Source: Bdellovibrio bacteriovorus (GTDB taxonomy: Bacteria > Bdellovibrionota > Bdellovibrionia > Bdellovibrionales > Bdellovibrionaceae). Taken from it: a stretch of DNA of 64,000 nucleotides. The notes under the pieces are model-generated. The model saw nothing but the letters and a program-made list of their open reading frames with translations. It was not told the DNA's origin and did not search any database. How positions within the stretch are numbered: the first letter of the stretch is position 1; every line of letters starts with the position of its first letter. The position numbers were made by a program, and so were the translations under genes. Positions 8,966 through 35,910 of the stretch are shown in pieces. The stretch spans positions 124,001 to 188,000 of the forward strand of contig NZ_LUKF01000020.1 of NCBI RefSeq assembly GCF_001592755.1. The letters are read 5' to 3'.

Positions 8966-9155
8966 GTTGGTGACCGCTGAAACTTCGGTGGAGGCGGGTG
9001 CTTAAGGATTGAGCGGAAAGGTTTGAAGTCTCCCTCTTTTTCAATATGCTTGCAAAAAGAATATGGACAACTGGACTTTTCCACCATTAAATAAGAGCAA
9101 ACTAAAATTAGGACAGCATTCGTTTGTCTTTGGCAACAAGAAGCGAAGGATGATT

Positions 9156-9680: not shown

Positions 9681-9696
9681 GGTTTCGGAAGGTACC

Positions 9697-12600: not shown

Positions 12601-12834
12601 AAAGTAGCCTGCCAAACTGCATGTCCTGCAGGTGGTATCGTATTCGGTGACTTGAATGATCCGAACTCACAAGTGGCGAAGATCTTTAAATCAGAAGAAC
12701 GTGCTTACGCTCTTCTTGAAGAATGGCATGCAGCACCTTCCGTGCGCTACCTTTCTAAGATCCGTAACAATGATAAAGAATCAACTGGTGGCCACAAAGG
12801 TCACGGTACTGCAAAACAAGGTGAGCACTCATGA
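9697..12834 (+). CDS. actB: Alternative complex III subunit ActB (molybdopterin-like domain fused to iron-sulfur domain)
   Basis: Large peripheral subunit of complex III. After about 60 residues comes a Tat-type twin-Arg signal (RREFLKLMG, residues 65-73) ending in a Cys near 83. Next is a molybdopterin-oxidoreductase-like domain up to about residue 790; ActB proteins of this class lack the cofactor. The C-terminal ferredoxin-like part has four Cys clusters: [24 protein letters not shown], a third reading [11 protein letters not shown], and CTFC with CQTACPAGG. The third cluster's spacing is that of a 3Fe-4S site, so three 4Fe-4S plus one 3Fe-4S are expected. Length of 1045 residues is normal. 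The stop overlaps actC by four bases. Confidence 0.95.
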
Positions 12835-14192: not shown

Positions 14193-14716
14193 TGGCTAAT
14201 AATTATACAAAAGGTATCGCTGGTATCTGGGAAGAAGAACATTTGATCTTGAAGGCCGCTCGCAAAACTCGCGAAGCGGGCTTCACAAAGTTCGAAGCCA
14301 TCTCTGCTTATCCTATTCACGGTATGGAAGAAGCTTGCGGAATCAAAAGATCTTGGATTCCCTATGTGACTTTCGTAGCGGGTTGCGTGGGTCTTTTGGC
14401 AGGTCTTGCTTTGACGTATTGGACGTCAGCAGTGGACTGGGCTGTGAACGTGGGCGGTAAACCGTTCTTCTCGTTGCCAGCTTTCATTCCAATCATGTTC
14501 GAATTAACAATCTTGTTTGCAGCTCTTTGTTCCGTGGGCGCTTTGTTCTATGCGTGCAAAATCCCACGCATCGATCCGCCAAGCATTGACCCTGATTTGA
14601 GCTCTCATAAATTTGCGATCTTCATCCCGCACAATGACATTGGCTACGATGAAACGAAAATCGAGAGAATGTTCAAAGATTTGGGCGCAACTGAAGTTAA
14701 GAAGACGGAGTACTAA
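14192..14716 (+). CDS. actD: Alternative complex III subunit ActD (DUF3341 membrane protein)
   Basis: Small subunit with a soluble N-terminal alpha/beta part and two transmembrane helices at about residues 59-80 and 100-122. The segment FEAISAYPIHGMEEACGIKR before the first helix, and a second soluble tail ending DLGATEVKKTEY, match the ActD pattern. Its role is structural, pairing with ActC and ActF in the membrane. It follows actC with a one-base overlap, and actE begins two bases after its stop. Length of 174 residues is as expected. Confidence 0.92.
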   Translation: MANNYTKGIAGIWEEEHLILKAARKTREAGFTKFEAISAYPIHGMEEACGIKRSWIPYVTFVAGCVGLLAGLALTYWTSAVDWAVNVGGKPFFSLPAFIPIMFELTILFAALCSVGALFYACKIPRIDPPSIDPDLSSHKFAIFIPHNDIGYDETKIERMFKDLGATEVKKTEY

Positions 14717-14718
14717 TA

Positions 14719-15297
14719 ATGAGAAGCCTCGTGAATTTATCAGTAGGAATTGCGGCAGCAGGCTTGGCAGCATTAGCCCTGTCTAGCTGTGGTCCTCGTG
14801 GCAACAAAGCCAACGTAGAACTTATCCAAGATATGATGGAGTCTCCGGCAATCAAAGCTCAGGAGTACGACGAAACATCTCCACATCACAGCGGTATGCG
14901 CGTTCCTCCAGAAGGAACAGCTCCGGTAGGTTTTGAGCCTTACCGTTACGCGACTGATGTTGAAGGTGCCTCTAAAAACTTGAAGAACCCGCTTGCGGGC
15001 CAAATGGATGAGACGACTTTGCTTGTAGGACAAAAATACTACGAGACAAACTGTGCGATCTGCCACGGCTTTAAAGGTGAGGGCGGCGTTGCTGCGAAAT
15101 CTTCGGTTTCTGAAAAAATGGCTTTAAAACCACCAGCGGTTATCAGTGATAAAGTAAAAGCATGGCCAGATGGACATCTTTACCACGTGATCACGATGGG
15201 CCAAGGTGTGATGGGTCCTTATGCGGCTCACATCCCGCAAAAATACCGTTGGCAAGTTGTTAACTACATTCGCTTCCTAGAGAAGCAATCTAAGTAG
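14719..15297 (+). CDS. actE: Alternative complex III subunit ActE, monohaem cytochrome c lipoprotein
   Basis: Membrane-anchored cytochrome c that receives electrons from the complex and passes them on. A lipoprotein signal ends at LALSSC (Cys near residue 24). One haem site, CAICH, occurs near residue 112 with FKGEGG after it. The downstream ITMGQGVMGPYAAHIP supplies the likely Met axial ligand, and WQVVNYIRFLEKQ is the typical closing helix of class I cytochromes c. Two bases separate it from actD, so co-translation is likely. Confidence 0.93.
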   Translation: MRSLVNLSVGIAAAGLAALALSSCGPRGNKANVELIQDMMESPAIKAQEYDETSPHHSGMRVPPEGTAPVGFEPYRYATDVEGASKNLKNPLAGQMDETTLLVGQKYYETNCAICHGFKGEGGVAAKSSVSEKMALKPPAVISDKVKAWPDGHLYHVITMGQGVMGPYAAHIPQKYRWQVVNYIRFLEKQSK

Positions 15298-16511: not shown

Positions 16512-16692
16512 CGGGGACGGGCTTGGGCAAGGCTCTCTGCCTTGTGGGCCCTTCGGACACATCCTCGCGCTAAGGGAGCTCTTTGTGGCTCCCTTTTCTT
16601 TTTTCTTTTGTTTTCTGAGTGCTAATTTGGATTTTCGGGCGCTGCGGAACTTGGTCCCGCAAGGCAGAGAGCCTTGCCCAAGCCCGTCCCCG
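16512..16692. repeat. 33-bp perfect inverted repeat enclosing a terminator (REP doublet-like)
   Basis: Arms at 16512-16544 and 16660-16692 are exact reverse complements over 33 bases, with about 115 bases between them. Each arm carries its own small stem-loop, CAAGGC-TCTCT-GCCTTG. The arrangement is like paired REP/BIME elements after a stop codon; the first arm begins seven bases after the actF stop. It could also be the ends of a tiny non-autonomous element. Confidence 0.8.
16572..16604 (+). terminator. Rho-independent terminator of the act operon
   Basis: Stem AAGGGAGC (16572-16579) pairs with GCTCCCTT (16588-16595) over an eight-base loop, and a T-rich run follows to about 16608. It lies inside the 33-bp inverted repeat. 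Confidence 0.8.
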
Positions 16693-16793
16693 GTGCTTTT
16701 CGTTGTTTTTTTCTTCGAGGGGTTTTGATGGGCTTTTTCGGAGGGGAGGAGCTTCGTGCAGATGCGCTTTCGCGCGTATGTGGGTTCGGTGTG

Positions 16794-16990
16794 AAAAGGT
16801 GCCTGCTTCCCTTTGTGTTGTAAAGGTACCAGGTTCTCTTTTCTACGGGCGATGCTGCTTCTCATCGTGTTCGAAAGGTGCAAAGCTGCTTTCTTTTGCG
16901 CTAACGGTACTCAGTTCTTTTCAATTAAAAGGTAAGTGCTTTCCTATTGTTTGGAGAGGGTACATGATCCTTCTTACTTCCACCGTGGAA
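16794..16990. repeat. Degenerate repeat, about 27-bp period
   Basis: Six clear units, each beginning near AAAGGTRC and ending in a CTTCYYTTTT-like pyrimidine run. Their GGT cores are at 16798, 16825, 16877, 16906, 16931 and 16959. A weaker unit at about 16848 fills the double-length step, and another may sit near 16988. Spacing is 23-30 bases. The first unit shares 14 identical bases (AAGGTGCCTGCTTC) with 23430-23443, next to a palindromic element. Unit identity is too low for CRISPR repeats. Confidence 0.5.
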
Positions 16991-16994
16991 GTAA
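16974..16994. repeat. 21-bp perfect palindrome, copy 1
   Basis: TTACTTCCAC, centre C, GTGGAAGTAA: ten-base arms with a single central base. It is related to the palindrome at 17107-17127. It could fold as a hairpin in RNA or bind a dimeric protein. Confidence 0.7.
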
Positions 16995-17106
16995 CTTTCT
17001 GCCTTCTTTATGGATTTCCCGTTTGTATTTGCCAATGTCTAATGGCGGAACGGCTTGAGTGTGTGGCACTTAAAAGCACTTCTCAATCGATCCTTGACGC
17101 ATTTGC

Positions 17107-17127
17107 TTACTGCCACGGTGGCAGTAA
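17107..17127. repeat. 21-bp perfect palindrome, copy 2
   Basis: TTACTGCCAC, centre G, GTGGCAGTAA. It differs from the copy at 16974 at one position in each arm, and the two changes keep the symmetry, so the palindrome itself appears to be conserved. Confidence 0.7.
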
Positions 17128-17442
17128 CTAATTCCTCTCTGAGGTGAATGCGTTTTCACTTGTACAAAAGTACCGCTTCCTATCTTTGGAAAAGGGGGCA
17201 GATTTAACCGCTATTAATTCCCTCTTGGAAGTTAAATTCCCTTCGTTCGCTCAGAGATGACTGTCGCTTTTTCGTAGATGTCTAAATTGTTTTCGATTGG
17301 GAGTTCGGGCACGAGGCCTCAGCTTGTTTCTATTGATTGTGAGGTTTATTTTTCCCGGTTTCGTCGTGGCCTCTTTATTGCTCCTTGGGGTTCCGGATTA
17401 TTTTAAATAGGTCGTTAACCAATTCTTTACTAGGGAGCGTTT

Positions 17443-18000
17443 ATGATTACTGATTTTAGAAAAGCCGTTCTTTTGGTGCTAGGTTGTTGTCTTTTCCTTG
17501 GAGTGTCTGCTCAAGCGCAGAACCGTGGGGATCGCGAGTCCGAGCGTATTCGTATTCTTGAGTCGAAAGTTCAACAGCTTGAGAGCTTGATTTACAATTT
17601 GAATCAGCGTGTTTCTAATCTTGAATATCGTGGGACGCCGACTTTGCCTCCTCCGCCAGTGCCGGCTTCTGAGGTGGCTTGTATGATTACGGATAGTGGT
17701 TACGGCAAGGTGTTCTTGGGCAAGGGCCGCACGAAGCTTGAGGCGGAAGCTAAGGCTAAGGAAGTGTGCGGAGCTAACGTGCATGCTACCTACTGCAATA
17801 ATACTTTGAAGTGCAGTGATCCTGTACAAGATCGCGTGATCCAGGGTGCTATCTGCGTAATTACTGATTCTGGTTACGGTAAGACATTCAAAGGCGAAGC
17901 TAAGAGCGTCCTTGAAGCTGAGTACAATGCTCGTAAAGCTTGTAACAACGCGGTTCACGCTACTTACTGCAACACCAATGCTCGTTGCGATACCTTCTAA
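17443..18000 (+). CDS. Secreted coiled-coil protein with duplicated cysteine module, paralogue 1
   Basis: Function unknown. A signal peptide (residues 1-25, ending VSAQAQ) is followed by a short coiled coil at about 29-60 (ILESKVQQLESLIYNLNQRV), which suggests oligomerisation. A Pro-rich hinge (TLPPPPVP) comes next. Then two copies of a 45-50 residue module follow: each begins C-x-I-T-D-S-G-Y-G-K, has a charged helix (KLEAEAKAKEVC, then VLEAEYNARKAC), and ends HATYCN with a final Cys. Four Cys per module suggests two disulfides in each. AGGGAG precedes the ATG by six bases. The next gene is a close paralogue. Confidence 0.85.
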   Translation: MITDFRKAVLLVLGCCLFLGVSAQAQNRGDRESERIRILESKVQQLESLIYNLNQRVSNLEYRGTPTLPPPPVPASEVACMITDSGYGKVFLGKGRTKLEAEAKAKEVCGANVHATYCNNTLKCSDPVQDRVIQGAICVITDSGYGKTFKGEAKSVLEAEYNARKACNNAVHATYCNTNARCDTF

Positions 18001-18023
18001 TTTTCGTCGAAATTCTCTTCTTC

Positions 18024-18060
18024 AAAAGCCTCACCGAATCGAACGGTGGGGCTTTTTTAT
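18024..18060 (+). terminator. Rho-independent terminator
   Basis: AAAAGCCTCACCG pairs with CGGTGGGGCTTTT (one G-U pair) over a seven-base loop, followed by TTTTTATTT. It ends the first secreted paralogue's transcript. Confidence 0.85.
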
Positions 18061-18187
18061 TTCCACAAAAGAAGTGGTAAACGCCGGTGTATTTTTGACT
18101 CTTTCGCACTTGGCTTTGTTATTGCTTTAAGGGAGTTTGTCTTACTTCTTGGTGAAGTTTGGTAACCACTGTCCTTGGGGGATCTCA

Positions 18188-18730
18188 ATGTCTGTACTTA
18201 GAAAATCACTGGTTTTGGTTTTAGGTTGTTGTCTTTTGCTGGGAGTGTCTGCTCACGCGCAAAGTCGCGAGGCCGAACGTATTCGTATTCTTGAGACGAA
18301 GGTGAGTCAGCTTGAAGGGCTTATTTACAATCTGAACCAACGTGTTTCTAATTTGGAATATCAAAATCCTCCCATGCCGCCTCCTCCGCCTCCGATTGTG
18401 GAAGTGGCTTGTATGACGACGGATACGGGTTACAACAAAGTCTTCTTAGGAAAAGGTCGCACGAAGCTTGAGGCTGAAGCGAAGGCGAAAGAGTCTTGCG
18501 GCAATTCGGTAAATGCCGTGTATTGCAATGGCTCGGTGAAGTGCAGTGATCCGGCTCAGGATCGTCTGACTCAAGGGGCTCTTTGTGTTCTTACAGATAC
18601 TGGATACAACAAAATCTTCCGTGGAGAAGGACGTTCTCCAGTGGAAGCGGAATACAATGCACGCAAAGCCTGTGGAAACTCTGTGAACCCGGTGTATTGC
18701 ACGGCTTCTGTTCGCTGCGAAACATTCTAA
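18188..18730 (+). CDS. Secreted coiled-coil protein with duplicated cysteine module, paralogue 2
   Basis: Tandem paralogue of the gene at 17443, with the same order: signal peptide ending VSAHAQ, coiled coil (ILETKVSQLEGLIYNLNQRV), Pro hinge (MPPPPPP), and two modules starting CMTTDTGYNK and CVLTDTGYNK. Eight module cysteines are kept. The ATG at 18188 has GGGGGA seven bases upstream and begins the signal peptide at once; a longer frame upstream lacks support. Each paralogue has its own terminator, so they may be separately expressed and differently regulated. Confidence 0.85.
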   Translation: MSVLRKSLVLVLGCCLLLGVSAHAQSREAERIRILETKVSQLEGLIYNLNQRVSNLEYQNPPMPPPPPPIVEVACMTTDTGYNKVFLGKGRTKLEAEAKAKESCGNSVNAVYCNGSVKCSDPAQDRLTQGALCVLTDTGYNKIFRGEGRSPVEAEYNARKACGNSVNPVYCTASVRCETF

Positions 18731-18753
18731 TAATTACGCGTTATTCATTCTTC

Positions 18754-18788
18754 CAAAAGCCTCTTTCACAGAGGCTTTTGTCGTTTTC
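18754..18788 (+). terminator. Rho-independent terminator
   Basis: CAAAAGCCTC pairs perfectly with GAGGCTTTTG (18771-18780) over seven loop bases, followed by TCGTTTT. Confidence 0.8.
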
Positions 18789-18877
18789 CGACTGGACTGC
18801 TGTATTTTTCCCTAAGAAAACTCTGCCTCTTGAAACCGCCCTCCATCATCAACGACCATGAAAGAGCAGGGGGGATC

Positions 18878-19420
18878 ATGCGTATAGCGTTGTCAGTTTT
18901 CTTTATTCTTTCAGTCTTACTTACCATCGAAAGTGTGGCCGCGACATCTCAGAAAACTCAACAGCTTATCGATCAATATCATTCTGAAAAGGCTCTTTGG
19001 GCGGTAATCTTAAACGCGCCACGACCGCGTCCACTTCCTGACGAGCCTTCTCAACCTGCTCCGCCGACAAAGCCCAATCCTCCGCCGAATCGGCCTCCGA
19101 ATTGTCCTCCTCCTGGGGGCTTTCCTAGCGACTGTATTGAAGCCGTTTGCAATCAGATGAGCCGCTTTGAATGCGATGACCGTCAGGACATGCTTGAGGT
19201 CGCACGGGCCTGTCATAATGTAAACGGGGATTGCATCCGCACGGTCTGTGGGAAAGTCAGTCGTTTTGCTTGTGATGAGAAGTTAGAACTCTTTGAAGTG
19301 ACCTCGATGTGCCGAGGACTCTATGACTCTTCATGTATCGAATATGTGTGCTCGCGAGTTTCGCGCTTTGACTGCGACGAGCTTTCAGAGATTCGCGAAA
19401 TCGCGCAACAGTGTCGTTAA
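18878..19420 (+). CDS. Secreted protein with Pro-rich linker and three Cys-x(4)-Cys repeats
   Basis: Unknown function. Signal peptide to about residue 22 (SVAATS), a helical stretch, then a strongly Pro-rich linker (roughly residues 44-80). Three repeats of about 36 residues follow: each reads C-I-x-x-V-C, then a SRF segment with C-D, then a helix ending in Cys (for example CIEAVCNQMSRFECD, CIRTVCGKVSRFACD, CIEYVCSRVSRFDCD). Four Cys per repeat suggest disulfide-linked helical hairpins. The start at 18878 follows GGGGGG closely and opens the signal peptide. It sits beside two other cysteine-module secreted genes. Confidence 0.82.
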   Translation: MRIALSVFFILSVLLTIESVAATSQKTQQLIDQYHSEKALWAVILNAPRPRPLPDEPSQPAPPTKPNPPPNRPPNCPPPGGFPSDCIEAVCNQMSRFECDDRQDMLEVARACHNVNGDCIRTVCGKVSRFACDEKLELFEVTSMCRGLYDSSCIEYVCSRVSRFDCDELSEIREIAQQCR

Positions 19421-24622: not shown

Positions 24623-25060
24623 ATGAAAGCCGTCGTACAAAGAGTTTTGAATGCTTCAGTCACGGTGGATGGAAAACTGATTTCTTCCATCGACAAAGGC
24701 TTTCTGACTTTGTTAGGTGTAGCGAAAGGCGATACTGAAGAGCAACTGCAAAAGCTCATCAACAAGATCATTGCTCTGCGCGTGTTCCCTGATGAAAACG
24801 GCAAAATGAATCTGTCACTCAAAGATGTTGGCGGCCAGCATTTGATTGTTTCGCAATTCACCTTGTTAGGTGATGCCTCAAAAGGGAATCGTCCCAGCTT
24901 TATCAATGCAGAGGCACCTGAAATCGCAAACGCCCTGTATGAAAAAGCTCTCGAGCTCAGTCAGGCGCAAGGAGTACCTACTCACGGTGGGGTCTTTGGT
25001 GGCGATATGAAAGTCGGTCTGACGAATGACGGTCCCGTCACTTTACTTCTAGAAGTCTAA
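24623..25060 (+). CDS. dtd: D-aminoacyl-tRNA deacylase
   Basis: Removes D-amino acids (and Gly from tRNA-Ala) from mischarged tRNAs. Starts [17 protein letters not shown] as nearly all Dtd proteins do. The two active-site motifs are visible: SQFTL near residue 78 and TNDGPVT close to the C-terminus. Length of 145 residues is exact for the family. It abuts the ArsC-like gene with no gap, and converges on the lipoprotein gene after one base. Confidence 0.96.
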
Positions 25061-25061
25061 G

Positions 25062-25685
25062 TTATTTCTGCGAAGTGAGTTTCCAGCTCCATACACTATC
25101 GCTGAAACTCACGGTCACGGAATTTTCTTTCAAAAGTTTTCTAATTTCTTTCAAAGCAGATGTTCGCTGAGCGTCCGAAATGTGAAGCAGACGCAGTAGT
25201 TCGTTGAGCTTCTTTCCTTTTCCTATTTGTATTTCTTTTCGCAAGCTTTCAAAATTAAGTGTGATGAATTGGCGTACTTCCAAAGCTTGTTGAGAGCTCA
25301 AGTCCGCCACTTTCACAGGATGAATATTCACGACGTATTTTTGAGGAGACAGCTCGTAAATCGCGCCTGTACTGTAATCGACAGCGTAGCCAATAAAGAG
25401 GCCCGCTAAAAGATTCCAGTAAAATAGGTCTGTGGTTTTGGTGGGAAGTGTGACGGTTTGAGAGTGAAATCCATCTTTTTCAATAGTGAGGACAGGGTTT
25501 TTACTTTTAGGTACTTGGCCTGAAAACGGTGTTACACCAATCTTCTTTCCATTGTAGATAACATTGGCGGACTCAATATTGGAATTCACTTTGAGCTCTT
25601 GTTGAGTGCCGCGCAAGATGGTAGCGCAACCTGTAGATGCCAGCAAAACCGCTAGGGACAAGTGTTTTATAATGAGCTTGTTCAA
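25062..25685 (-). CDS. PEGA-like lipoprotein
   Basis: Start is TTG at 25685, with GGAGGA five bases upstream; this gives a lipoprotein signal whose lipobox is LLASTGC (Cys near residue 20), followed by ATILRGTQQ. Next comes a PEGA-type carbohydrate/peptidoglycan-associated fold: NVIYNGKKIGVTPFSG, then a TIEKDGFHSQTVTL strand pair. A hydrophobic stretch (FYWNLLAGLFIGYAVDYSTG) and a helical C-terminal part follow. Family members are membrane lipoproteins of unclear role. The upstream coding frame back to 25844 lacks a start signal. 207 residues. Confidence 0.8.
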   Translation of the reverse strand: MNKLIIKHLSLAVLLASTGCATILRGTQQELKVNSNIESANVIYNGKKIGVTPFSGQVPKSKNPVLTIEKDGFHSQTVTLPTKTTDLFYWNLLAGLFIGYAVDYSTGAIYELSPQKYVVNIHPVKVADLSSQQALEVRQFITLNFESLRKEIQIGKGKKLNELLRLLHISDAQRTSALKEIRKLLKENSVTVSFSDSVWSWKLTSQK

Positions 25686-25881
25686 GAGTCTCCTCCAAAT
25701 AAAAACGTTCCAGTGTTTAAAGGATTTCGTGAAAACAAAATCAGTATATAATTTTGTTGTGCCAGCTTCAATGAACGTCACAGAAAAAAGTTGGACATTA
25801 AATTCACCTGCATTTAGTCTTAAATTGAGAATTGTTTTTGGCACTTTGTTTCGGAACTTTCATGTAAAGAGGTGACAACTC

Positions 25882-27096
25882 ATGCTCCGCTTTCGGTACG
25901 TTTTTATAACAGCGGTGTTCTTCAGTGTGCAGGCTTTCGCGCAACTGATCCCAACTCCATTTTGGACAGAAAAAGAAAAAGGCCCGGTGAGTTTCGCATT
26001 CGCTGATGTTGCGGGCGTGAATCCGTCTACAATGGTTGTCTCGGATTCAATCACGTTGGCGGGATACGGCGGAACTTATAATGCCACTTGCAGTGGTTGC
26101 GAAATCGAACGCAATGGCAACGGAACTTGGAGCACTTCTGTTTCTGGGTTTAATATGGGCGACACCATCCGTATTCGTCTGACCTCCAGTGCGTCGCTCA
26201 GCGGGACCGCTACGGGAACGGTCACAGTCGGAGAAACAGTGGCGGGGGCTTGGACAGTAACAACTCGTCATCCGTATCCATGCGCCACGGCGGAATGGGG
26301 AAGCATTCCTCACGGAAGTTCGGTAACAGCGTATTCGGCGTCAACCTCGAACGCGTGCGCAAGTATATCTGAGTCGCGCACTTGCACCGACGGAAGTTTG
26401 AGTGGCACCTATACTTTCAACGTGTGCAATAATAATTGTAACGTGGCGCCTTGGGGCTGGGTTGCTCATGGAGCAGGAGTCACCGCTTATCAAACCGTCA
26501 CCGCAAATTCTTGCGCGGCGGTGGCTGAAACCCGTACGTGTAATAACGGAACTCTAAGTGGTTCTTACACAAATGCCAATTGCAGTAATAACTGCAATGT
26601 CAGTCCTTGGGGATGGGTCACTCATGGGAACTCTGTCACGGCCTATGCTTCAGCCACTTCCAATTCCTGCGCTGGAGTTGCACAAACTCGAACTTGCAGT
26701 AATGGAACTTTGGCGGGAACTTACGCTTATGGAACTTGTAATAACAATTGCAATGTCAGTCCTTGGGGTTGGATCGCGCACGGCACATCAGTCACCGCGT
26801 ACGCGGGGCCCACAGGGCCTTGTGTTTCGCAAAGTCGCAGTTGCAGCAACGGTTCGTTAAGTGGCAGTTACACCTACGCCGGCTGTACGGCTTGCAACGC
26901 CGCCAGCAACACGACCAATATGTGTGCTGGGTATACGTATGATGCGGGCGGAGCGTGTATTTCAGCGGCGGGATATTGCGCTTCAGGCAGTGGCACCTGC
27001 GTGATTTCATATTACTACGGCACGGGAAGTGGATCGTACTGTGGCGACGCTTACGGTCCGGGGCCTCAACCTTATTACTTGCTTCAGTGTTATTAA
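25882..27096 (+). CDS. Secreted cysteine-rich repeat protein
   Basis: Exported (signal peptide to about residue 21, VQAFAQ). Residues about 35-128 form a beta-rich domain with TSS...VTVGETVAGAWTVTTR at its end, a pattern common in surface-associated bacterial proteins. Four repeats of about 48-50 residues follow, each with a WGW/WGS-x(2)-HG-x-SVTAY core, a RTC-NG-TLSG-Y segment and paired Cys. The C-terminus (from about 345) is Gly/Tyr/Cys-rich. In all there are about 25 Cys, so heavy disulfide bonding is expected. The repeats recall thrombospondin type 1-like modules only loosely. AGAGGTGA precedes the ATG. A DsbA-like gene follows four bases after the stop. Confidence 0.82.
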   Translation: MLRFRYVFITAVFFSVQAFAQLIPTPFWTEKEKGPVSFAFADVAGVNPSTMVVSDSITLAGYGGTYNATCSGCEIERNGNGTWSTSVSGFNMGDTIRIRLTSSASLSGTATGTVTVGETVAGAWTVTTRHPYPCATAEWGSIPHGSSVTAYSASTSNACASISESRTCTDGSLSGTYTFNVCNNNCNVAPWGWVAHGAGVTAYQTVTANSCAAVAETRTCNNGTLSGSYTNANCSNNCNVSPWGWVTHGNSVTAYASATSNSCAGVAQTRTCSNGTLAGTYAYGTCNNNCNVSPWGWIAHGTSVTAYAGPTGPCVSQSRSCSNGSLSGSYTYAGCTACNAASNTTNMCAGYTYDAGGACISAAGYCASGSGTCVISYYYGTGSGSYCGDAYGPGPQPYYLLQCY

Positions 27097-27100
27097 AATT

Positions 27101-27865
27101 ATGTGGAAGATATCGATCGCATCCTTTTTATTAGCGGGTTGCGCTCCTTCCACGGAAGAGCTGAAAAAAGTTTTTGCTGAAAATCCAGATATCGTTTTTA
27201 CGGCGATTGAAAAAGATCCCGAGCGTTTTGTAGATCTGACGAAGCAGGCAATCAACCCTGATTATCGTCAGCGCCAAAAGGAAAGCGCCCAAGAAAATGA
27301 GCGTCTGAAAAAAGCCGAGGCTCCCATCGTTGATGAAAAGCGTATTTCCTTGGGGCCTAAAAATGCCGCGGTCACCATCATTATTTTTTCGGATTTTTTA
27401 ACATGTTACAAGTGCCCGCAAGCGGAAGAAGGAGCACTGCAAATGCTACAGCGATTTCCGAACCAGGTGCGTATCGTCTATCGCCACCTTCCTGCTTCGC
27501 GAGGTAAAGACGCCATTCAAGCCGCGGAATACGTAGAGGCGATAGGGCGGCAAGATTTCAAAATGGTCGCTCTTTTTCGCGAGCGTGTTTTCGCTAATCA
27601 CGGACGCGTTCGTAACGAAGGCGAAGCTTACTTTAAAAGCCTCACTAGAAAGCTAGATGTGGATATGGCTCGACTCCATTCGGACTTGGCAGAAATCCGA
27701 CAAGAAAAGCTCGTTAAAAAAGATATCGATGAAGCGGCAAAACAAGGAGCTAAAACGCCTCCGTTTTTTGTTGTCAACGGAGTGGGTGTCTCTGGGAAAG
27801 CAGCCCCATTAGAAAATCTGATTAACAAAATCCTTTCTCAAGAAAAGAAAAAGGGGGACCTGTGA
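27101..27865 (+). CDS. DsbA-like thiol oxidoreductase lipoprotein
   Basis: Periplasmic, membrane-anchored: lipobox LLAGC near residue 14. After a helical region there is a thioredoxin fold beginning at about residue 85 (GPKNAAVTIIIFSDFLTC). The active-site pair is C-Y-K-C (residues 102 and 105), and cis-Pro context KTPPFFVVNG comes near the end. This is the DsbA/BdbD-like layout, for disulfide formation or isomerisation. It begins four bases after the cysteine-rich repeat gene without its own clear ribosome site, so translation probably depends on that gene. Its 3' end overlaps the next gene by four bases (GTGA). Confidence 0.88.
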   Translation: MWKISIASFLLAGCAPSTEELKKVFAENPDIVFTAIEKDPERFVDLTKQAINPDYRQRQKESAQENERLKKAEAPIVDEKRISLGPKNAAVTIIIFSDFLTCYKCPQAEEGALQMLQRFPNQVRIVYRHLPASRGKDAIQAAEYVEAIGRQDFKMVALFRERVFANHGRVRNEGEAYFKSLTRKLDVDMARLHSDLAEIRQEKLVKKDIDEAAKQGAKTPPFFVVNGVGVSGKAAPLENLINKILSQEKKKGDL

Positions 27866-28305
27866 AGATTCCATTGATGACAGCATTTTTCTTGCTAAGT
27901 TCAACAGCGCAGGCCACGGTCAATGGTCCGGCAGAGATGGGCGTCTACGTAGGTAAGACCGACAAAAATGCGCCCTGTGAATTGGAGATATCCCGAGTTT
28001 ATCGCGAAGGAACTATCGAGAGTATTTTCACCTTGCGTCTTTCCGCAAAAGTAAATGGCGAAAACTTTGTTCTTGCGGTTCCTCCTGAGCTTAAAGAGGA
28101 AAGTGGCGAAGTTCTTAATAGTCATAAATTTGTCGGACTTAATCCATCCACCACGGGCGCTCGGGCACTTGTCGTAAAATTTGAAAGAGACCCTAAAAGC
28201 AAAGCTTATCTCGATGAATATATTTTATTAGATCATCAACCCCGTTCAGGTCGCGCCGTGAAATCTGTGGCAACGGGTTGTTACGGGTTGAAACTTCGTA
28301 AATAG
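27862..28305 (+). CDS. Small secreted hypothetical protein
   Basis: 147 residues, GTG start with AAAGGGGG a few bases before it, overlapping the DsbA-like gene. The signal peptide (MKIPLMTAFFLLSSTAQA) ends near residue 18. The mature protein is beta-rich with two Cys (APCELEIS and ATGCYGL), one at each end, suited to a single disulfide. No family recognised. It sits inside a tight run of exported-protein genes. Confidence 0.75.
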   Translation: MKIPLMTAFFLLSSTAQATVNGPAEMGVYVGKTDKNAPCELEISRVYREGTIESIFTLRLSAKVNGENFVLAVPPELKEESGEVLNSHKFVGLNPSTTGARALVVKFERDPKSKAYLDEYILLDHQPRSGRAVKSVATGCYGLKLRK

Positions 28306-28317
28306 GAAACAAGCAGA

Positions 28318-29193
28318 GTGTTAAAAAGTTTCTTCGTTCTTTTAATCATGTTCGGTGTAAGTTCTGCGCAAGCCAGAGCTTTCAATGTGACATTGTTAGG
28401 AACAGGGAACCCGTGGCCAAGGCCTGAGCGTATGGGGCCAGCAGTGGTCGTAAAAGTGGGTGAGGAGTCGTTTCTTTTTGATGTTGGACGAGGTGCTTAT
28501 CTCCAGTTGCATAAAGCAGGAATCGCGACAAAAAGCCTTCGTCACATTTTTCTCACTCATCTTCACTCGGACCACACCGTAGGACTGCCTGATTTATGGT
28601 TAAGTTCTTCTCTTGTAAGCCGAGGCCTGGAAGCTTGGGAGATCTCGGGTCCTCAGGGGACAAAGAGTTTTATTTCCTACATGCAAAAAGCATTTTCTGC
28701 GGATACTGAAACTCGTATCCGCGAAGATAAAACGCCTCAGGTGAAATTCAAAATCAATGTCCACGAAATCACGGAAGGTCTTGTTTATAATAAAAATGGA
28801 ATAAAGATCACGGCCTTTAAAGTCGAGCACGGACCGATTGGTGAGGCCTTCGGATATCGCATCGATGCCGAAGGAAAGTCTGTCGTAATTTCCGGAGACA
28901 CCGTCTATAGCGAAAATCTTATTAAGCACTCAAAGGGTGTGGATCTTTTAATTCACGAAGTGGCGTACTTTACTGGTGTGGAAGTGAAATCATCCCCGGT
29001 TTTAAGTCATCACACTCTTCCAGATCAGGCGGGCCGGGTGTTTTCGCAGGTGAAACCTGGCAAGGCCGTTTACACTCATATTGTTGTTTCTAAAGATATC
29101 ACTCCAGAAAAACTGATTGAACTGACTAGGAAGACATACCAAGGACCGCTCGTCGTCGGTGAAGATCTTATGTTTTTTGAGTTGAACAAGTAA
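28318..29193 (+). CDS. Secreted metallo-beta-lactamase fold hydrolase (RNase Z-like subgroup)
   Basis: The di-zinc motif THLHSDHTVG (H81, H83, D85, H86) and later ligands (VEHGPIGEAFGYR, SGDTVYSENL, SHHTLPDQAG) are all visible, giving a complete active site. The overall order resembles arylsulfatase/RNase Z-like members of the superfamily. A signal peptide of about 20 residues (MLKSFFVLLIMFGVSSAQA) sends it to the periplasm, which argues against tRNA processing. GTG start, with AGGAAAC about nine bases upstream. Substrate unknown. Confidence 0.87.
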   Translation: MLKSFFVLLIMFGVSSAQARAFNVTLLGTGNPWPRPERMGPAVVVKVGEESFLFDVGRGAYLQLHKAGIATKSLRHIFLTHLHSDHTVGLPDLWLSSSLVSRGLEAWEISGPQGTKSFISYMQKAFSADTETRIREDKTPQVKFKINVHEITEGLVYNKNGIKITAFKVEHGPIGEAFGYRIDAEGKSVVISGDTVYSENLIKHSKGVDLLIHEVAYFTGVEVKSSPVLSHHTLPDQAGRVFSQVKPGKAVYTHIVVSKDITPEKLIELTRKTYQGPLVVGEDLMFFELNK

Positions 29194-29223
29194 AGCTAAA
29201 GCACGTTGCAGGGATGGTGAGAA

Positions 29224-30207
29224 ATGAAACTCTTAGTTATCGCATTGGTCGTAAACGTATTCTTTGCAGTTCCATCGAAGGCGCAAACCGGGAAGCCTGC
29301 GGTGACTCCGCGACAGGCGCTTTTAAGCCGTCATATGCAAAAGCTAGATCCTTCGCAAATGGAAATGAATGGAATTCGTCTGAAGGATTACGAAGGCTTT
29401 GAAAAAAACTGGAAGTTTGTCACGGTAAGATATCGAAAAGATTCGACAGAGATGCGTTACACCTACGCAAACGATCTTGCATGGAAAGCTTTGACGAGTG
29501 GAGAAAAATATCCAGACGGAGCCGTTTTTGCCAAGATTGGAGTGATCACCGAAGAGGATCCTTCTTTTGCAAGTTCCGTGGTTCCCATGGGAGCCATCCG
29601 CTATCAATTCATGGTTCGCGACGAAAAAAAATGTAAACATACGGACGGATGGTGTTACGCCCTATTTGGTGGCCTGGGTGTTGCGCTTACAAATGATGTG
29701 AAAACGGAAGAAATGGCCTGCGCTGCCTGTCACAAAATTGTTCCAGAAAGACAGTACGTTTTTTCTCAAGTAGCACCACTGACTTCTTATATGAAGCAAG
29801 TACAGGAAAAAGCCGCCAAAGCTATGGAGGCCATTCTGCCTCCAGTGCCGGTGGATCAAAAAGCCGTACAATTCAAAACAATTTCTGCCAGTGACCTTCC
29901 CGAGGATGCACAGCGCTTTTTAAGTTCAAAACAAAAAAAGGTTCGTGACTTAGTGGGGCCACTCAAAGAGTCGGCGTTCGAGGGCACCTTGAATGAAATG
30001 CTTCCGAATTTGATCAAAGAAGCACTGGCGACAAACCAGCCAGCCATTTTTACAACGACGGATCAAAAGTATTTCACGATGGCATTTCCTGACCATCAAA
30101 GAAAAACGCCGTGTAACGACGGAATGCACCCGATCGCTTTTGTCGAAACGGTGTGGGGCTCGCCAAGTCGCCGTATTAACTTAAATGTCGGCTGCTACGG
30201 CAAGTAG
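29224..30207 (+). CDS. Cytochrome P460-like haem protein, secreted
   Basis: The signal peptide ends near residue 20 (SKAQ). A P460-type domain follows: VTVRYRKDSTEMRYTYAND, AWKAL...YPDGAVFAKIG, and YQFMVRDEKK with DGWCYALFG. The c-type haem site is CAACH at residues 166-170. In known cytochromes P460 a Lys crosslinks to the haem and the enzyme oxidises hydroxylamine; whether the crosslink Lys is present cannot be judged by eye. About 155 residues follow the haem motif, longer than classical P460. GGTGAG precedes the ATG. Confidence 0.8.
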   Translation: MKLLVIALVVNVFFAVPSKAQTGKPAVTPRQALLSRHMQKLDPSQMEMNGIRLKDYEGFEKNWKFVTVRYRKDSTEMRYTYANDLAWKALTSGEKYPDGAVFAKIGVITEEDPSFASSVVPMGAIRYQFMVRDEKKCKHTDGWCYALFGGLGVALTNDVKTEEMACAACHKIVPERQYVFSQVAPLTSYMKQVQEKAAKAMEAILPPVPVDQKAVQFKTISASDLPEDAQRFLSSKQKKVRDLVGPLKESAFEGTLNEMLPNLIKEALATNQPAIFTTTDQKYFTMAFPDHQRKTPCNDGMHPIAFVETVWGSPSRRINLNVGCYGK

Positions 30208-30215
30208 AGGTGATT

Positions 30216-31223
30216 ATGAAGTACGTTTTAGCTTTCACTCTTCTTTTTGGGGCCTCTTTTTCTTTCGGCACACCTAAGACCGAAAAAGAGGCTATCCAGT
30301 ACGCGACAGTAATCATGGATGGTTTCCATATTAAGAAGATCTATACTTCGATGACGGGGCCCCTTAAAGAAAAAGGCGTCGCGCTGACGCCCGAAGATAA
30401 ATTCGCTTCGATCTGGGTGAAAAGCATGTCGGTCGATATCTTCAACGAGAAAGGCCAAAAGGAATCCGAAGAGTATCTCTGTCATGCATGGGTGACAATT
30501 CCGACGCCGATGAATGAAGAAAAGTATGGCCGAGTCTCTGGCATGCTGACAATTTCGCAAGGCATGCCTGAAATGGAATTTCCTCCAGGGTACGCGATGA
30601 AAATGGCGAAAGTGATCGATTCGCAAGTCAATGTGCTTGTTCAAGCTCTGAACAACGTCGAAACGAAAATCGATAAAAAGCTGATTTATAGAATTAAGAT
30701 TGGCTACATTGATGACAAAGATGCGCAAGCCTTAGGAATAAAGCAGCTCTACGGTGACAGTTTCGCGACTCAGGTGCCCCCAGAAAAAAGACACAGGCCT
30801 CCGTCAAAGCCTGAACGTTTAGGCGAGGACCCCCATAAAGGCCACAGCATGACTGGTATGGGCGGTGCTGACCCCGTGCACTTCATCGTGCCGCCCGGTA
30901 AGCACGAGTATCGCTGGCCTCTTTCTCAAGACATGGTCTCAATACGAAACAACGGTGTGATTCGCTTGATCAAGCTTCATCTGCATCCCTATGGAGAGTC
31001 CGTGGCGCTTTATGATAAGACCGCTAAAAAGTTCGTATGGAAGGGGACGGCGACCCAAGATCCGAAGCGGGCGGTTCTCTTAAAGACCGAAAGTTATTCC
31101 AGCACAGAAGGTATTAAGCTGAATAACCAGCACAGCTACGAAGTAGTCACTACGTATAACAACACCAGCAAGCAAACTGTCGACGGTATGGGAGTGCTCA
31201 GAGTTTACTACGGACTAAAGTAG
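30216..31223 (+). CDS. Secreted hypothetical protein with His-rich C-terminal domain
   Basis: ATG at 30216 with AGAGGTGA just before it; an in-frame GTG six bases upstream is less likely. Signal peptide to about residue 18. The N-terminal half is alpha/beta. A His/Met-rich hinge (EDPHKGHSMTGMGG) leads into a beta domain with VHFIVPPGKHEYR and KLHLHPYGESVALYD. HxH in such a beta context can bind copper or another metal, but this is inference. It follows the P460 gene by eight bases and probably shares its transcript. Confidence 0.72.
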   Translation: MKYVLAFTLLFGASFSFGTPKTEKEAIQYATVIMDGFHIKKIYTSMTGPLKEKGVALTPEDKFASIWVKSMSVDIFNEKGQKESEEYLCHAWVTIPTPMNEEKYGRVSGMLTISQGMPEMEFPPGYAMKMAKVIDSQVNVLVQALNNVETKIDKKLIYRIKIGYIDDKDAQALGIKQLYGDSFATQVPPEKRHRPPSKPERLGEDPHKGHSMTGMGGADPVHFIVPPGKHEYRWPLSQDMVSIRNNGVIRLIKLHLHPYGESVALYDKTAKKFVWKGTATQDPKRAVLLKTESYSSTEGIKLNNQHSYEVVTTYNNTSKQTVDGMGVLRVYYGLK

Positions 31224-31250
31224 GTTTTCAAAAACGCCGATAAGTTCAAT

Positions 31251-31730
31251 ATGAAAACTTGGATCTTACTCGGTACGTTTTTGATGATGATCTTGTCCGG
31301 CTGTGGAGCTGTCGACGCCGAATTTTTTGGTCCTTCCGAAAAAGTGAAGTTAGATCCTCGCAATGTCACTGGATTTGCGGCCACCCCATACAATGTGGCT
31401 TACACTGCAGATGGCGAGTACTGGATTGAAGGCTCCGGGGGAGCTCTGGTTGGAGAGGTTCGCGTTGAGTCTACGTCACACCGGATCTCAGTCAGTCGCC
31501 AAGGTACAATGATGAGTCTGCGTAGACCGGCGGCGTTTCATGCAATGGCACCGTAAGAAAAAGAATTCGATCTCCGCGCGAACGAAGAATTTGTGGTGCT
31601 CATGAAGGCTCAGGGTCCTCGTGGTTCAGAGACCTTTTTAGAGGCCTCATTTCCCTCTGAAATCATGCGTGTTGACGGAAAGTATTTTCGCTCCTCACAG
31701 CTCTATTATTTCTATTTAAAAAGCCGTTAA
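31251..31730 (+). pseudogene. Small lipoprotein gene interrupted by an in-frame TAA
   Basis: The first part encodes a lipoprotein signal (lipobox MILSGC) and a beta-rich stretch up to a TAA at 31554-31556. The same frame stays open for 57 more codons and reads like protein (EFDLRANEEFVVLMKAQGPR, then SSQLYYFYLKSR) before a second TAA at 31728. The downstream part has no ribosome site, so a single base change in one ancestral gene of about 159 codons is the simplest reading. Alternatives are a sequencing error or a genuine short protein of 101 residues (31251-31556). Confidence 0.6.
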
Positions 31731-31813
31731 AATGTCTCATCCTGAGTGCTCAATCAGGTTCTCAGGCACCTCGGCATCTTTAGAAATCCGAAAATAATTC
31801 CGAAAAGTAGAGC

Positions 31814-33577
31814 ATGGGACAATTCGGTACGTTTCTATTTTTCAGTCTGTCCTTCCTTCTGGTACAGCCTTCGCTGGCAGCCTCGTCGCTGACATATCAA
31901 GGCCGCATCATCAAAAAGGATGGAACTCCTGTTTCCACTCAAAACGTGGTTTTCACCATAAATCTATACAGCCCCGGTTCTGAAAACTGTTTGATCTTTC
32001 AAGAGACACATACATTGGACATGCGAAACTCTGATGGGATTTTTTCTCTAGAAATCGGCAAAGGGACCCGAGCCGGAGCGGCGGTTGACGGGGGATTTTC
32101 ATTAAGCCAGATTTTGTCGAACAAAGCCGCAACGATAGGTCCATTTCCTTCTTGCGCCAGTGGAAGTGATTTCGTACCAGGGCCCCTGCAAACGCGTAAG
32201 CTCGTTATCAACTTCAACGATGGTTCCGGTGCTCAAACCATTCAATCACAGAATATTTCGCAAGTTCCGTACTCTGTAGAATCACAACAGGTCGGAGGAT
32301 ATAAATCGGAAAACCTCCTGCGCGTAGACGGCGGAACCGCGACACCGATGACACAGACTCAAGCCAACGAGTTGTTAGCGTTGATTAGCGGGACCTCGAC
32401 TCAATATTCTAAAGCCGGCACTTTAGGTGGTATCACGATTCCTAATCCCGCGTCACTGACTCCCGGAGAGTCTTTGCGTTGGAACGGGACGGGGTGGGAA
32501 ACTTTTGTGCCTGGAGAATCCGGAGTGGTGATCGCCAATATCACCAGTAGCAATAGTTACCTCACGGCAACGACGTCTTCCGGAAGTACGACGTTGACTC
32601 TCAACGTGGGCACCACTGCCAACACAGTCGCGGCAGGTAATGATTTACGAATCGTGAATGCCTTTCAAAGTACGGCATCCTTGGGAGGAGATCTGAGCGG
32701 CACTTTGCCGAACCCGACAGTTGCAAAACTTCAAGGTCGAAATGTCGCATCGACAATTCCAGCGCTGGGATCTTTTTTAAAATGGGATCAAGCCACGACG
32801 ACCTGGGTTTCCACGCCTTTACCAGATTGTGCCATTAATGAAACTCTGACTTTCAATACGGTGACGGATATTTATGAGTGCTCTGCGATTGGGTTGAATG
32901 CGAATCAGATTACCGCGGGAGCACTTCCGATTCTTCGCGGTGGTACAGGGCTTTCAACGACGCCAACCGATGGTCAATTGCTTATCGGAAATGGCAGTGG
33001 CTACACGCTAGCTGCGCTGACTGCCGGAGATAATATCTCTATCACTAACGGAGCGGGAAGTATCGAGATTGATCTTGCTGGTCCTATTGCAGACTCAAAG
33101 CTCGACACAATCACAACCGCAGGAAAAGTTTCTGGAAGTGCCATCACATCCGGCACTATCAGTGGAACAACTGCAATCAACACCTCAGGCAATATTCACA
33201 CCTCAGGGCGCATGATTGCTTCAGATACTTCTACGACGACAGCAAAGCTTGAGGTGTCGGGGCAAGTTCTGTCGAAGGTGTTCAACGCCGGTAACAGCAC
33301 TTCCATCGATTGGAATAACGGAAACGTTCAGTACACATCCGCTGATTGTGGCGCCTTCACGTTTTCAAACATGTTTGAAGGCGGATCTTATACTTTGATT
33401 GTCACGGGAGCAGGAGGAGGTTCGTGTTCGTTCTCTCAAGCTGCGCCGGATTCATTATCGGCGGGCGCATTCAAGGCCGTTCCCGCGGGGCCAACAGCGC
33501 AATCGGGAAGATCAACAGTCATCACATTCTTAAGAGCCGGGAACACTGTCTATACGACGTGGATCACTGGTTATTAA
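31814..33577 (+). CDS. Secreted tail-fibre-like adhesin (mosaic fibre candidate)
   Basis: 587 residues. The signal peptide (to about residue 22) is followed by a beta domain starting LTYQGRIIKKDGTPV and ending near residue 160. Then comes a long repetitive Ser/Thr/Gly/Asn-rich shaft. The shaft has phage-fibre signatures: LGGDLSGTLPNPTVAKLQG, GALPILRGGTGLS, DGQLLIGNGSGY, and GDNISITNGAGSIEIDL. The C-terminal 100 residues form a separate beta tip with Cys pairs (SADCGAFTF, GGGSCSFSQ). Trimeric fibres with variable tips are known surface proteins of Bdellovibrio used in prey contact, so a similar role is inferred. It is convergent with the gliding operon. Confidence 0.78.
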   Translation: MGQFGTFLFFSLSFLLVQPSLAASSLTYQGRIIKKDGTPVSTQNVVFTINLYSPGSENCLIFQETHTLDMRNSDGIFSLEIGKGTRAGAAVDGGFSLSQILSNKAATIGPFPSCASGSDFVPGPLQTRKLVINFNDGSGAQTIQSQNISQVPYSVESQQVGGYKSENLLRVDGGTATPMTQTQANELLALISGTSTQYSKAGTLGGITIPNPASLTPGESLRWNGTGWETFVPGESGVVIANITSSNSYLTATTSSGSTTLTLNVGTTANTVAAGNDLRIVNAFQSTASLGGDLSGTLPNPTVAKLQGRNVASTIPALGSFLKWDQATTTWVSTPLPDCAINETLTFNTVTDIYECSAIGLNANQITAGALPILRGGTGLSTTPTDGQLLIGNGSGYTLAALTAGDNISITNGAGSIEIDLAGPIADSKLDTITTAGKVSGSAITSGTISGTTAINTSGNIHTSGRMIASDTSTTTAKLEVSGQVLSKVFNAGNSTSIDWNNGNVQYTSADCGAFTFSNMFEGGSYTLIVTGAGGGSCSFSQAAPDSLSAGAFKAVPAGPTAQSGRSTVITFLRAGNTVYTTWITGY

Positions 33578-33587
33578 AACGAAAGAA

Positions 33588-33628: not shown

Positions 33629-34876
33629 CTAATTCTTTAAAGTTAGTGGAACAAGGTCCACCGAGAATCGAGCGCCTTCGACATATTGGTAGTCGATATC
33701 TCCAGAAAGAACGATCGAGTTGTCTTCTGGGTTGTACAACCAGCCACCTTTTGCTTTTTGCGGGATGACTTGTTTACCGTAACGAACACGCACCATCAGC
33801 TGACCGTTTTTATCAGCGCGCGGACGTTGGCTTAAGAAGATCTCTTTCGACAAAGTCTTCACCGTGATGTCGGAACCGATTTGAGCCAACTCGTCACCGA
33901 ACTTAGGGCTGACGATGCTCATGATGTGTTTTGCGCGAATTTGTTCTGGAGTTCCTTCGTTCGGATTTGCCGCCACAATCAATTGTTCTAAACGTGCAGG
34001 ACCGAAACCAGTACACTTGCCATTGTTCTTCGGAGTTTTTTGATTCATATCGAAGCACTCAGGATGATACTTCGGATGAATACGCAAATCCCAGTCTTTG
34101 TACGTGTCAGGATCTTGAGGACGCACAAGAACACCGTAGACTGCGACTTTTTCAGTGCGGCCGCCTTTAAAGTCGATCAGTTTTTGCGCCATCTCTTCTG
34201 GATTCAGATTTTTAGAAGAATCGTCAGCATCCGTCAAAAGAACCACAACAAGTTGTGCTTCCTTACGGAAGAATCCTTCGTTAGCAGCGCCACGGCCGGT
34301 CTTTTCCAAAGCTGCCGCTAAAGGAGAGAACAGCTCTTCAAACTCAGGGCCGCCTTGAGCATACGGAGTCACACCGATATTCAAAGTGGAAGCAATCAAT
34401 TTGCTGTTATTGTCAGATTTAGCCACGAAACGACGGCTTTGCGATGTCTGGCCTTGAGTGTTCTTAATGTAACGAAGATCACCAATTTGGTAGATATCTT
34501 TTTTAGTTTGTGCATAACGATCTGAACTGTCCCACACAGAAATAACCCCGATGTGGTAGTCGATCATTTTATTTTTTAAAATACCCGCAGTAAAACGGTC
34601 GATGTTGCGCAAAAGATTGTCTTGCGCCGTCTTCATACTGTCAGAGTTGTCTGTCACAAAAAGAATGTCCACTTCAGGATTGAAGTCAAATTGGCTTTGA
34701 CCACCATCTTCTGTGATCCACTCAAAAGTTTGAGCCGGGATCTGGTCATACTGAGGGATTTGAACCTGTTCCTCAACCAAAGGTCTTTCAACTCTTAAAG
34801 TTGCAGACTCTGGACTGCAGGCAGAGACCAACATAAATGCTGTAAAATAAATTGCTACGATAACGAGGTTTCTCAC
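33629..34876 (-). CDS. von Willebrand factor A domain lipoprotein, CglB-like gliding adhesin
   Basis: 415 residues. GTG start with AGGAGG five bases upstream and a GTGA overlap with the preceding gene. Lipobox LVSAC puts the lipidated Cys at about residue 20. The VWA domain begins near 68 with VDILFVTDNSDSM, whose D-x-S-x-S is a complete MIDAS metal site, and continues with VVVLLTDADDSS. In Myxococcus, CglB (about 416 residues, VWA, outer-membrane lipoprotein) is the adhesin that couples the gliding machine to the substrate. Size, signal, domain and operon context all agree. Last gene of the operon. Confidence 0.85.
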   Translation of the reverse strand: MRNLVIVAIYFTAFMLVSACSPESATLRVERPLVEEQVQIPQYDQIPAQTFEWITEDGGQSQFDFNPEVDILFVTDNSDSMKTAQDNLLRNIDRFTAGILKNKMIDYHIGVISVWDSSDRYAQTKKDIYQIGDLRYIKNTQGQTSQSRRFVAKSDNNSKLIASTLNIGVTPYAQGGPEFEELFSPLAAALEKTGRGAANEGFFRKEAQLVVVLLTDADDSSKNLNPEEMAQKLIDFKGGRTEKVAVYGVLVRPQDPDTYKDWDLRIHPKYHPECFDMNQKTPKNNGKCTGFGPARLEQLIVAANPNEGTPEQIRAKHIMSIVSPKFGDELAQIGSDITVKTLSKEIFLSQRPRADKNGQLMVRVRYGKQVIPQKAKGGWLYNPEDNSIVLSGDIDYQYVEGARFSVDLVPLTLKN

Positions 34877-35910
34877 ATTTTCCTCCTGATCCCTTTGGCG
34901 CAAGTTTTTGCAGCCACTTCGAACTTATCTAGTTCGTCGATCCAAGGTCTTCCGTCGTCCATAAATACCAGCTTGTCGTCGCCAACTTTTTCAAATTGGT
35001 TTTTCTTATACATGCTGTCAGCTAACTCCATATCCGTGTGAACACGTTGGATGGCTTCAACCTCAACTAGGTTGAGCTTTTGAATGACGTTGAAGTTTTC
35101 GTTTGTTTCTTCTTGAGCTAATTCTTGAACACGTTTTTTCAAAGCCAAGAAGCTTTGCGTGTTTGTTTTTTCTAGTTGATCCTTAGCACGAACAGAATCA
35201 GCCAAAGCAATCGCTCTTTCTGAAGCTTTGAAACGCAAAGCCTGCTTTTGGAATTCCACGTCTTTATAGATCAACAGTGGAAGACGTTGAACAGCGTCAC
35301 CCATATCGTCCAAAGTTAAAGGAAACTTGTCGGCCTTTTTCAAAACTTGAGTCAAAGCATCGTTCCAACCGGTTTTAGCCAACTGTTGAACTTCCATAAT
35401 ACGGTTTTTTTGTTTTTCTTTAAAAATTTGGTGAGTTTCAAAAACACCTTTGTAATCACAGATCTTTAATTGAGTTAAAGACTGTAATAAGAAAGCCTCT
35501 GAATTAGAAATCTCAGCAAATTGAGGGGCTAGCAAAGTCTTAGTTTGCGCCAAAGCTTTCTCGTAATCTTCCTGACGGAAATAAGCCCAACCTTTTTCCT
35601 CTACCGCTGACAACCAGTATGTGTTGCCACGAGGAATTTCATTGTAAGTGCGAATAGCCTGTTCAAATTGACCTTTTGTGAAAAGCTTACGGCCTTCCGC
35701 AAGTGCACTCTTGTTATCGCAATCACTGCAAGTACCTAAAGCTTTTTTCTCAAGGTCTGAAGTGCTAAATGGGACATTCTTTTTAGCGGCTTTGTCGGAC
35801 CAAGTTTGCACCCAGTCTTTAACCGACACGCGATTCTGAGCCAGAGCTTGCGTCGACAAGCCCAGGCTTAGAACCGCCATTGTGCTAAGAGCGACGAAAG
35901 ACTTCATCAT
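34873..35910 (-). CDS. Periplasmic TPR-like protein, GltC-like
   Basis: Signal peptide (KSFVALSTMAVLSLG) ending near residue 25 at ALAQ. The mature part is nearly all helix, with TPR-like units (LAEGRKLFTKGQFEQAIRTY, EKGWAYFRQEDYEKALAQTK). A Cys pair (CSDC) lies near residue 60. In the Myxococcus gliding operon a periplasmic TPR protein, GltC, is encoded beside an outer-membrane barrel and the same holds here. Start ATG at 35910 or 35907, overlapping the barrel gene's TGA. The assignment rests on context more than on sequence. Confidence 0.72.
   Translation of the reverse strand: MMKSFVALSTMAVLSLGLSTQALAQNRVSVKDWVQTWSDKAAKKNVPFSTSDLEKKALGTCSDCDNKSALAEGRKLFTKGQFEQAIRTYNEIPRGNTYWLSAVEEKGWAYFRQEDYEKALAQTKTLLAPQFAEISNSEAFLLQSLTQLKICDYKGVFETHQIFKEKQKNRIMEVQQLAKTGWNDALTQVLKKADKFPLTLDDMGDAVQRLPLLIYKDVEFQKQALRFKASERAIALADSVRAKDQLEKTNTQSFLALKKRVQELAQEETNENFNVIQKLNLVEVEAIQRVHTDMELADSMYKKNQFEKVGDDKLVFMDDGRPWIDELDKFEVAAKTCAKGIRRKM

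Follow-up and report, generated by a model that had tools for sequence, protein, structure and literature searches.

The genes of accessory DsbA enzymes, such as those of the DsbL/DsbI system and SrgA, can adjoin the gene of their client. Accessory enzymes with special clients are known in this family, and DsbL and SrgA are presented as extra, strain-specific DsbA enzymes in an excerpt of the literature (PMC6067686). Proteus ScsC is likewise described, in the excerpt of a second source, as a trimeric isomerase (PMC5524982).

Here we analysed a window, i.e. the whole stretch of 64,000 nucleotides from Bdellovibrio bacteriovorus, in which a gene for a secreted, cysteine-rich protein of 404 amino acids with a signal peptide at about residues 1-20 (P1, positions 25882-27096, forward strand) precedes, on the same strand, that of a 254-amino acid lipoprotein of the DsbA/Thioredoxin_4 family (P2, 27101-27865). 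Like DsbL and SrgA, as portrayed in the excerpt above, P2 is an extra, strain-specific DsbA, and it shares with DsbL-type pairs the immediate adjacency of the two genes (4-nt gap). Whereas DsbL comes together with a dedicated redox partner, DsbI, none is encoded for P2 on the genomic island that carries it, nor is there a quinone-linked partner alongside, and the pair is not conserved across genomes. The pair is not mentioned in the titles or abstract openings of the Bdellovibrio papers listed on DsbA, disulfides and cysteine-rich proteins, sushi domains and VKOR (including PMC12750041), and a literature search for dedicated disulfide oxidoreductases encoded beside cysteine-rich genes found no paper. 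The arrangement is ordinary in kind and lies on a species-specific island; it is the unusual active site of P2 and the unnamed repeat of P1 that deserve attention.

A tightly spaced gene pair on a species-specific island

The TAA stop of P1 ends at 27096 and the ATG of P2 begins at 27101, leaving 4 nt between them (27097-27100), in agreement with a preliminary description of the locus. That description also held that P2 had no ribosome site of its own, and indeed no purine-rich Shine-Dalgarno-like site was found in the 20 nt before its ATG; however, 29 of 60 open reading frames (ORFs) of the window, whose starts were chosen mechanically, equally lacked a site under the same loose screen, so that its absence from P2 says little alone. 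The next gene has its GTG start at 27862, inside the end of P2 with a 4-base overlap of the stop, which leaves P2 coupled on both sides, within a same-strand run (25882-31556) whose successive gaps are 4, -4, 12, 30, 2 and 27 nt. P1 and P2, presumably cotranscribed, are probably translated from one message by coupling. The fixed ratio that had been proposed for the two products is conjectural; with reinitiation across a gap of 4 nt, their amounts may differ.

The pair lies within a species-specific block (25062-33577) with no counterpart at the equivalent site of the closest relative (G003), where DNA equal to window position 25061 is followed by about 38 nt and then by DNA equal to position 33578. 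The flanks share 90-91% DNA identity with those of G003 on both sides, and the junction implies that 8.5 kb are either extra here or lost there. Another genome (G021) carries about 2.5 kb of different genes at this site, which, lying between the genes at 24623-25060 and 33629-34903 (the latter for a lipoprotein), is variable, with other genes or none in these two genomes. No integrase was seen among the island ORFs on reading the ORF list.

Downstream of P2, and on the same strand, follow genes for a secreted protein of 147 amino acids with two Cys (27862-28305), which had no match in the 23 other genomes of the genus; a secreted metallo-beta-lactamase-fold protein without Cys (28318-29193); a secreted cytochrome P460-domain protein with a CxxCH motif and four further Cys (29224-30207); a secreted protein of 337 amino acids with no Pfam family (30210-31223); a putative lipoprotein of 101 amino acids (31251-31556); and a secreted, repetitive fibre-like protein of 587 amino acids (31814-33577). 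Their Cys counts are, in order, 2, 0, 6, 1, 1 and 6. The metallo-beta-lactamase-fold protein had only weak matches, in five genomes of the genus (25-27% identity, E about 1e-4 to 9e-4), which we took for other proteins of that fold. Homologues of the P460 gene occurred in 12 other genomes among the 143 of the class that were searched; that the P460 and metallo-beta-lactamase genes travel with P2 was considered and discarded, as none of the 14 P460 loci fetched from other genomes has a further island gene nearby.

The 587-amino acid protein, which may be called MAT-like by resemblance only, is similar (96 bits) to two long fibre-like secreted proteins encoded in another genome (L100, G005:C1:208000-224000, positions 6639-14940), which start like it. 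The stop of each of those two fibre genes overlaps the start of a gene for a cysteine-rich protein of 242 or 249 amino acids with a P1-type repeat, so that fibre and cysteine-rich protein recur as a pair. The MAT fibres of Bdellovibrio are themselves treated in an excerpted source (PMC10769870). Elsewhere in the window, four adjoining ORFs (16619-19420) contain 5.4-9.4% Cys and match no convincing Pfam family.

The cysteine-rich repeats of P1

P1 contains 25 Cys, all of them after residue 20, i.e. 25 in the 384 residues past its apparent signal peptide, which bears out the earlier count of about 25 in some 385 mature residues. Since this number is odd, at least one Cys must be free or bonded to another chain. 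Residues from about 31 to 130 make up an N-terminal beta domain, with a CSGC motif at 70-73 and strands taken from a low-confidence model, which is also present in longer lipoproteins (L087, L088 and L089). Four tandem four-Cys repeats follow (26281-26886, forward strand; residues about 130-335), in units of 49-53 residues spaced C-x24-C-x8-C-x13-C in units 1-3 and 23-6-13 in the last unit, and then a cysteine-rich tail with seven Cys. A Cys period of 52 residues gave 13 matches in P1, against a maximum of eight among 2000 random placements. Each repeat is a four-Cys module, probably with two disulfides. A model of the whole protein from 14 sequences (pLDDT 49.7) was too poor for fold searches, and a two-repeat model from 68 sequences (pLDDT 94.4) was used instead.

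Exactly four Cys were present in 355 of 383 P1-type repeat units taken from the frames of 90 loci and six added loci, the commonest spacing being 26-6-13. Repeats of this type occurred in 15 of 24 genomes of the genus (E<=1e-3) and in 35 of 138 genomes of the order (E<=1e-8). A set of 28 repeat loci came from named GTDB contigs assigned, among others, to Bdellovibrio, Alphaproteobacteria, Myxococcota, Methylomonas and candidate phyla, e.g. Kaiserbacteria; most of these contigs are MAGs, so that single cases could reflect contig misassignment. A P1-type protein of 15 units matched no Pfam family at E<=0.01. P1 itself scored 21.4 bits with Sushi_2, under the Pfam cut-off of 22.1, and this family was matched at E up to 1 by three of 68 repeat segments.

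Both Foldseek (E 2.2, non-significant) and VIA-align (Z 4.2, rmsd 7.5 over 87) placed factor H CCP19-20 in the top row for the two-repeat model, the best hits being CCP pairs, and the repeat profile (A4) found none among PDB sequences at E<=10. The P1 repeat shares with sushi/CCP modules (factor H CCP19-20, beta-2-glycoprotein I domain V) the four Cys per module and short linkers, and differs from them in that P1-type units are only 49-56 residues long. In CCP modules the disulfides join Cys I to III and II to IV. Judging from the model, the P1 repeat may be called sushi-like, and not a sushi domain. The P1-type repeat is a tandem four-Cys module that extends from Bdellovibrio to candidate phyla, with no Pfam family above threshold.

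P2 and disulfide oxidation in the genus

The Cys of P2 are Cys14, in a lipobox (LLAG/C), and Cys102 and Cys105, in an active site C-Y-K-C, and its cis-Pro is P221 in alignment A2 (region KTPPFF). Scores of 51.4 bits with Thioredoxin_4 (cut-off 23.2) and 29.5 bits with DSBA (cut-off 25.6), together with the CxxC and the cis-Pro, place P2 in the DsbA/Thioredoxin_4 superfamily and uphold its initial portrayal as a membrane-anchored thioredoxin-fold protein. It falls outside the core subfamily of CPxC DsbA lipoproteins, having C-Y-K-C whereas Pro is found in 18 of 19 others, and below the cut-off of the NCBIfam family NF041057, the Rcas_1661 (seleno)lipoprotein (68.1 against 190 bits). The family profile (A2) matched structures of the BdbD, DsbA and ScsC types (E 1e-20 to 1e-23), among them 3eu3, 4pwo, presumably Corynebacterium DsbA, and 4xvw, which we take to be Proteus ScsC and where the match extends into part of the N-terminal stretch. 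P2, related to ScsC by sequence, differs from these in being a lipoprotein.

DsbA-family matches were present in all 24 genomes of the genus, the best of each genome, P2 apart, being 34-38% identical to P2, and in 133 of 140 genomes of the order, where the top identity outside P2 was 38% among the matches listed. An orthologue of P2 was found in none of the 23 other genomes of the genus or the 139 other genomes of the order, and a direct scan of GTDB contigs yielded no relative. With the core Bdellovibrionales DsbA lipoprotein (e.g. L005, from the same genome), whose active site is CPYC in the rows aligned from the genus core, P2 shares the lipobox, the N-terminal helical stretch and Thioredoxin_4; it departs from it by CYKC, by an additional residue ahead of the first Cys and, in an ungapped alignment, by Pro for Thr before the cis-Pro. 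In all, 18 near-invariant columns of the family are altered in P2, including the Pro of CPxC and that Thr, so that its activity could be altered or lost, whereas the retention of both active-site Cys and the cis-Pro despite a long end branch (3.7 against a median of 0.45 in a 20-row tree), which leaves the position of P2 in the tree unsure, argues that the protein is used. By these comparisons P2 is a paralogue that has diverged strongly from the ordinary DsbA lipoprotein of the Bdellovibrionales, predicted to be membrane-anchored and to face the periplasm, and most likely fast-evolving.

VKOR (PF07884) was found in all 24 genomes of the genus and DsbB (PF02600) in one; the latter is absent from the genome of the window, whose single VKOR gene lies on another contig (C17) than the island (C20). 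The VKOR gene that was translated (L175, from G004) encodes a VKOR-DsbA fusion, and open frames of 402-424 amino acids suggest that the other VKOR genes of the genus do likewise. All 24 genomes also encode a DsbA-family lipoprotein other than P2. As VKOR occurs in every genome of the genus, general oxidation exists without P2; P1-type proteins elsewhere can apparently be oxidised without it, and P1 itself probably can. With VKOR and the core DsbA lipoprotein already supplying oxidation, P2 would be a helper and not a necessity. The sole DsbB of the genus (L117/L174, G011:C9) lies beside a DsbA-like gene. Second DsbA lipoproteins, with CPAC or CPYC, at six loci (L101, L102, L104, L106, L107 and L109) adjoin the gene of a membrane protein and mostly also that of a small regulator, neighbours that by eye look like BlaR/BlaI types.

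Pairing across genomes and the role of P2

All listed repeat places of the order genomes outside the window, those of the genus and the 28 GTDB loci were fetched, two places of the genus (G014:C37 and G009:C30) being left out of the flank test. Repeat frames were held by 89 of the 90 fetched loci, of which at least four duplicate others (L121/L089, L133/L096, L125/L179 and L127/L177), giving at most 85 distinct loci, and two (L087 and L003) are other sites of the genome from which the window comes. A profile of the DsbA family and the VKOR-fused DsbA domain (E<=5), which scored in all six added loci (the pair of the window itself together with DsbA and VKOR genes already known), scored in none of the 90 and so detected no DsbA-family gene near any of the 89 other repeat loci, several of which stop at contig ends or have a flank of 1.5 kb; thioredoxin folds of other kinds could be missed by this profile. 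P1-type proteins of up to 15 units are thus encoded with no DsbA nearby. From the other side, the fetched flanks of 55 distinct DsbA-family genes contained no P1-type repeat. The co-occurrence that the preliminary description proposed to look for was seen in one genome only, and relatives of P1 are found with no DsbA neighbour, largely the outcome that it had set against its own proposal. As P2 has no orthologue in the genomes searched, the pair can be scored in this genome alone.

Among the 109 neighbouring ORFs of the 55 DsbA-family genes, four had at least 5% Cys, three of these on the opposite strand and the fourth a 30-Cys protein of G027. The locus of the latter (L119, G027:C4, 2683-5358), a secreted CPYC DsbA followed by a secreted protein of 559 amino acids unrelated to P1, was rejected as a second pair, the protein having neither P1-type repeats nor a Pfam family. 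A weak P2 match by a repeat gene of G009 (L037/L092, E 2e-3 to 3e-4) was also discarded, being antisense to longer ORFs and given no score by the DsbA profile.

Our preferred reading, itself held tentatively, is that P2 may be an accessory thiol oxidoreductase, acting as an oxidase or an isomerase on the secreted proteins of the island operon, with P1 as its main, probably non-exclusive client. The lipoprotein would sit at the membrane, facing the periplasm, and would exchange disulfides with proteins of its operon; both its redox activity and the place of P1 as a client are inferred. P1 would come first because of its 25 Cys, against at most six in any other island protein, and it need not be the sole client, since the run holds six or seven genes for secreted proteins, two more of them with at least two Cys. 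Should P1 contain CCP-like, non-consecutive bonds, an isomerase would be more useful than an oxidase. From the dedicated catalyst and client originally proposed, the secreted cysteine-rich protein, the DsbA-family lipoprotein and their tight spacing stand, whereas dedication finds no support at the other repeat loci and DsbA genes; a dedicated partnership is no more than possible. It is quite improbable, on our assessment, that the altered site of P2 (CYKC, the extra residue and the Pro before the cis-Pro) is that of an isomerase remodelled to sort the non-consecutive disulfides of the sushi-like modules of P1. In that case the pair would have originated on one island, from duplicates of a chromosomal DsbA and of a chromosomal repeat lipoprotein.

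The same observations could be explained by chance adjacency on a patchwork island, P1 being oxidised by VKOR and the core DsbA while P2 has another job or is drifting, an account that we consider possible, if on the unlikely side. In its favour, the pair was met a single time; the entire block is missing from the nearest relative, while G021 has different genes there; 10 of the 60 ORFs of the window adjoin an ORF with at least 5% Cys, so that the chance of such adjacency is not small; and P2 combines a long branch with its 18 changed residues. Against this, P2 retains an intact reading frame, lipobox, CxxC and cis-Pro, and the 4-nt spacing on one side and 4-nt overlap on the other suggest a kept operon. 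That P2 serves the whole operon with no preference for P1, the 147-amino acid and P460 proteins being clients as well, agrees with its position within a closely spaced same-strand run and with the Cys of those two proteins (two, and CxxCH plus four), but most Cys reside in P1 and neither P2 nor any other island gene lies beside the P460 loci of other genomes, and we regard this as unlikely. Very improbable is a role like that of CcmG or ResA, in which P2 would mainly reduce or protect the CxxCH of the P460 haem protein encoded three genes downstream: the CxxCH protein does belong to the same gene run, but P2 is of the DsbA/ScsC kind and not of the TlpA/CcmG kind, and P460 homologues elsewhere lack such a neighbour.

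In this case the comparison across genomes makes plain why adjacency by itself is poor evidence of a partnership; should P1 and P2 indeed be partners, they would illustrate how quickly a pair of this kind can come about. The P1-type repeat may matter more than the pair, as it forms long arrays in secreted proteins and lipoproteins of predatory bacteria and candidate phyla.
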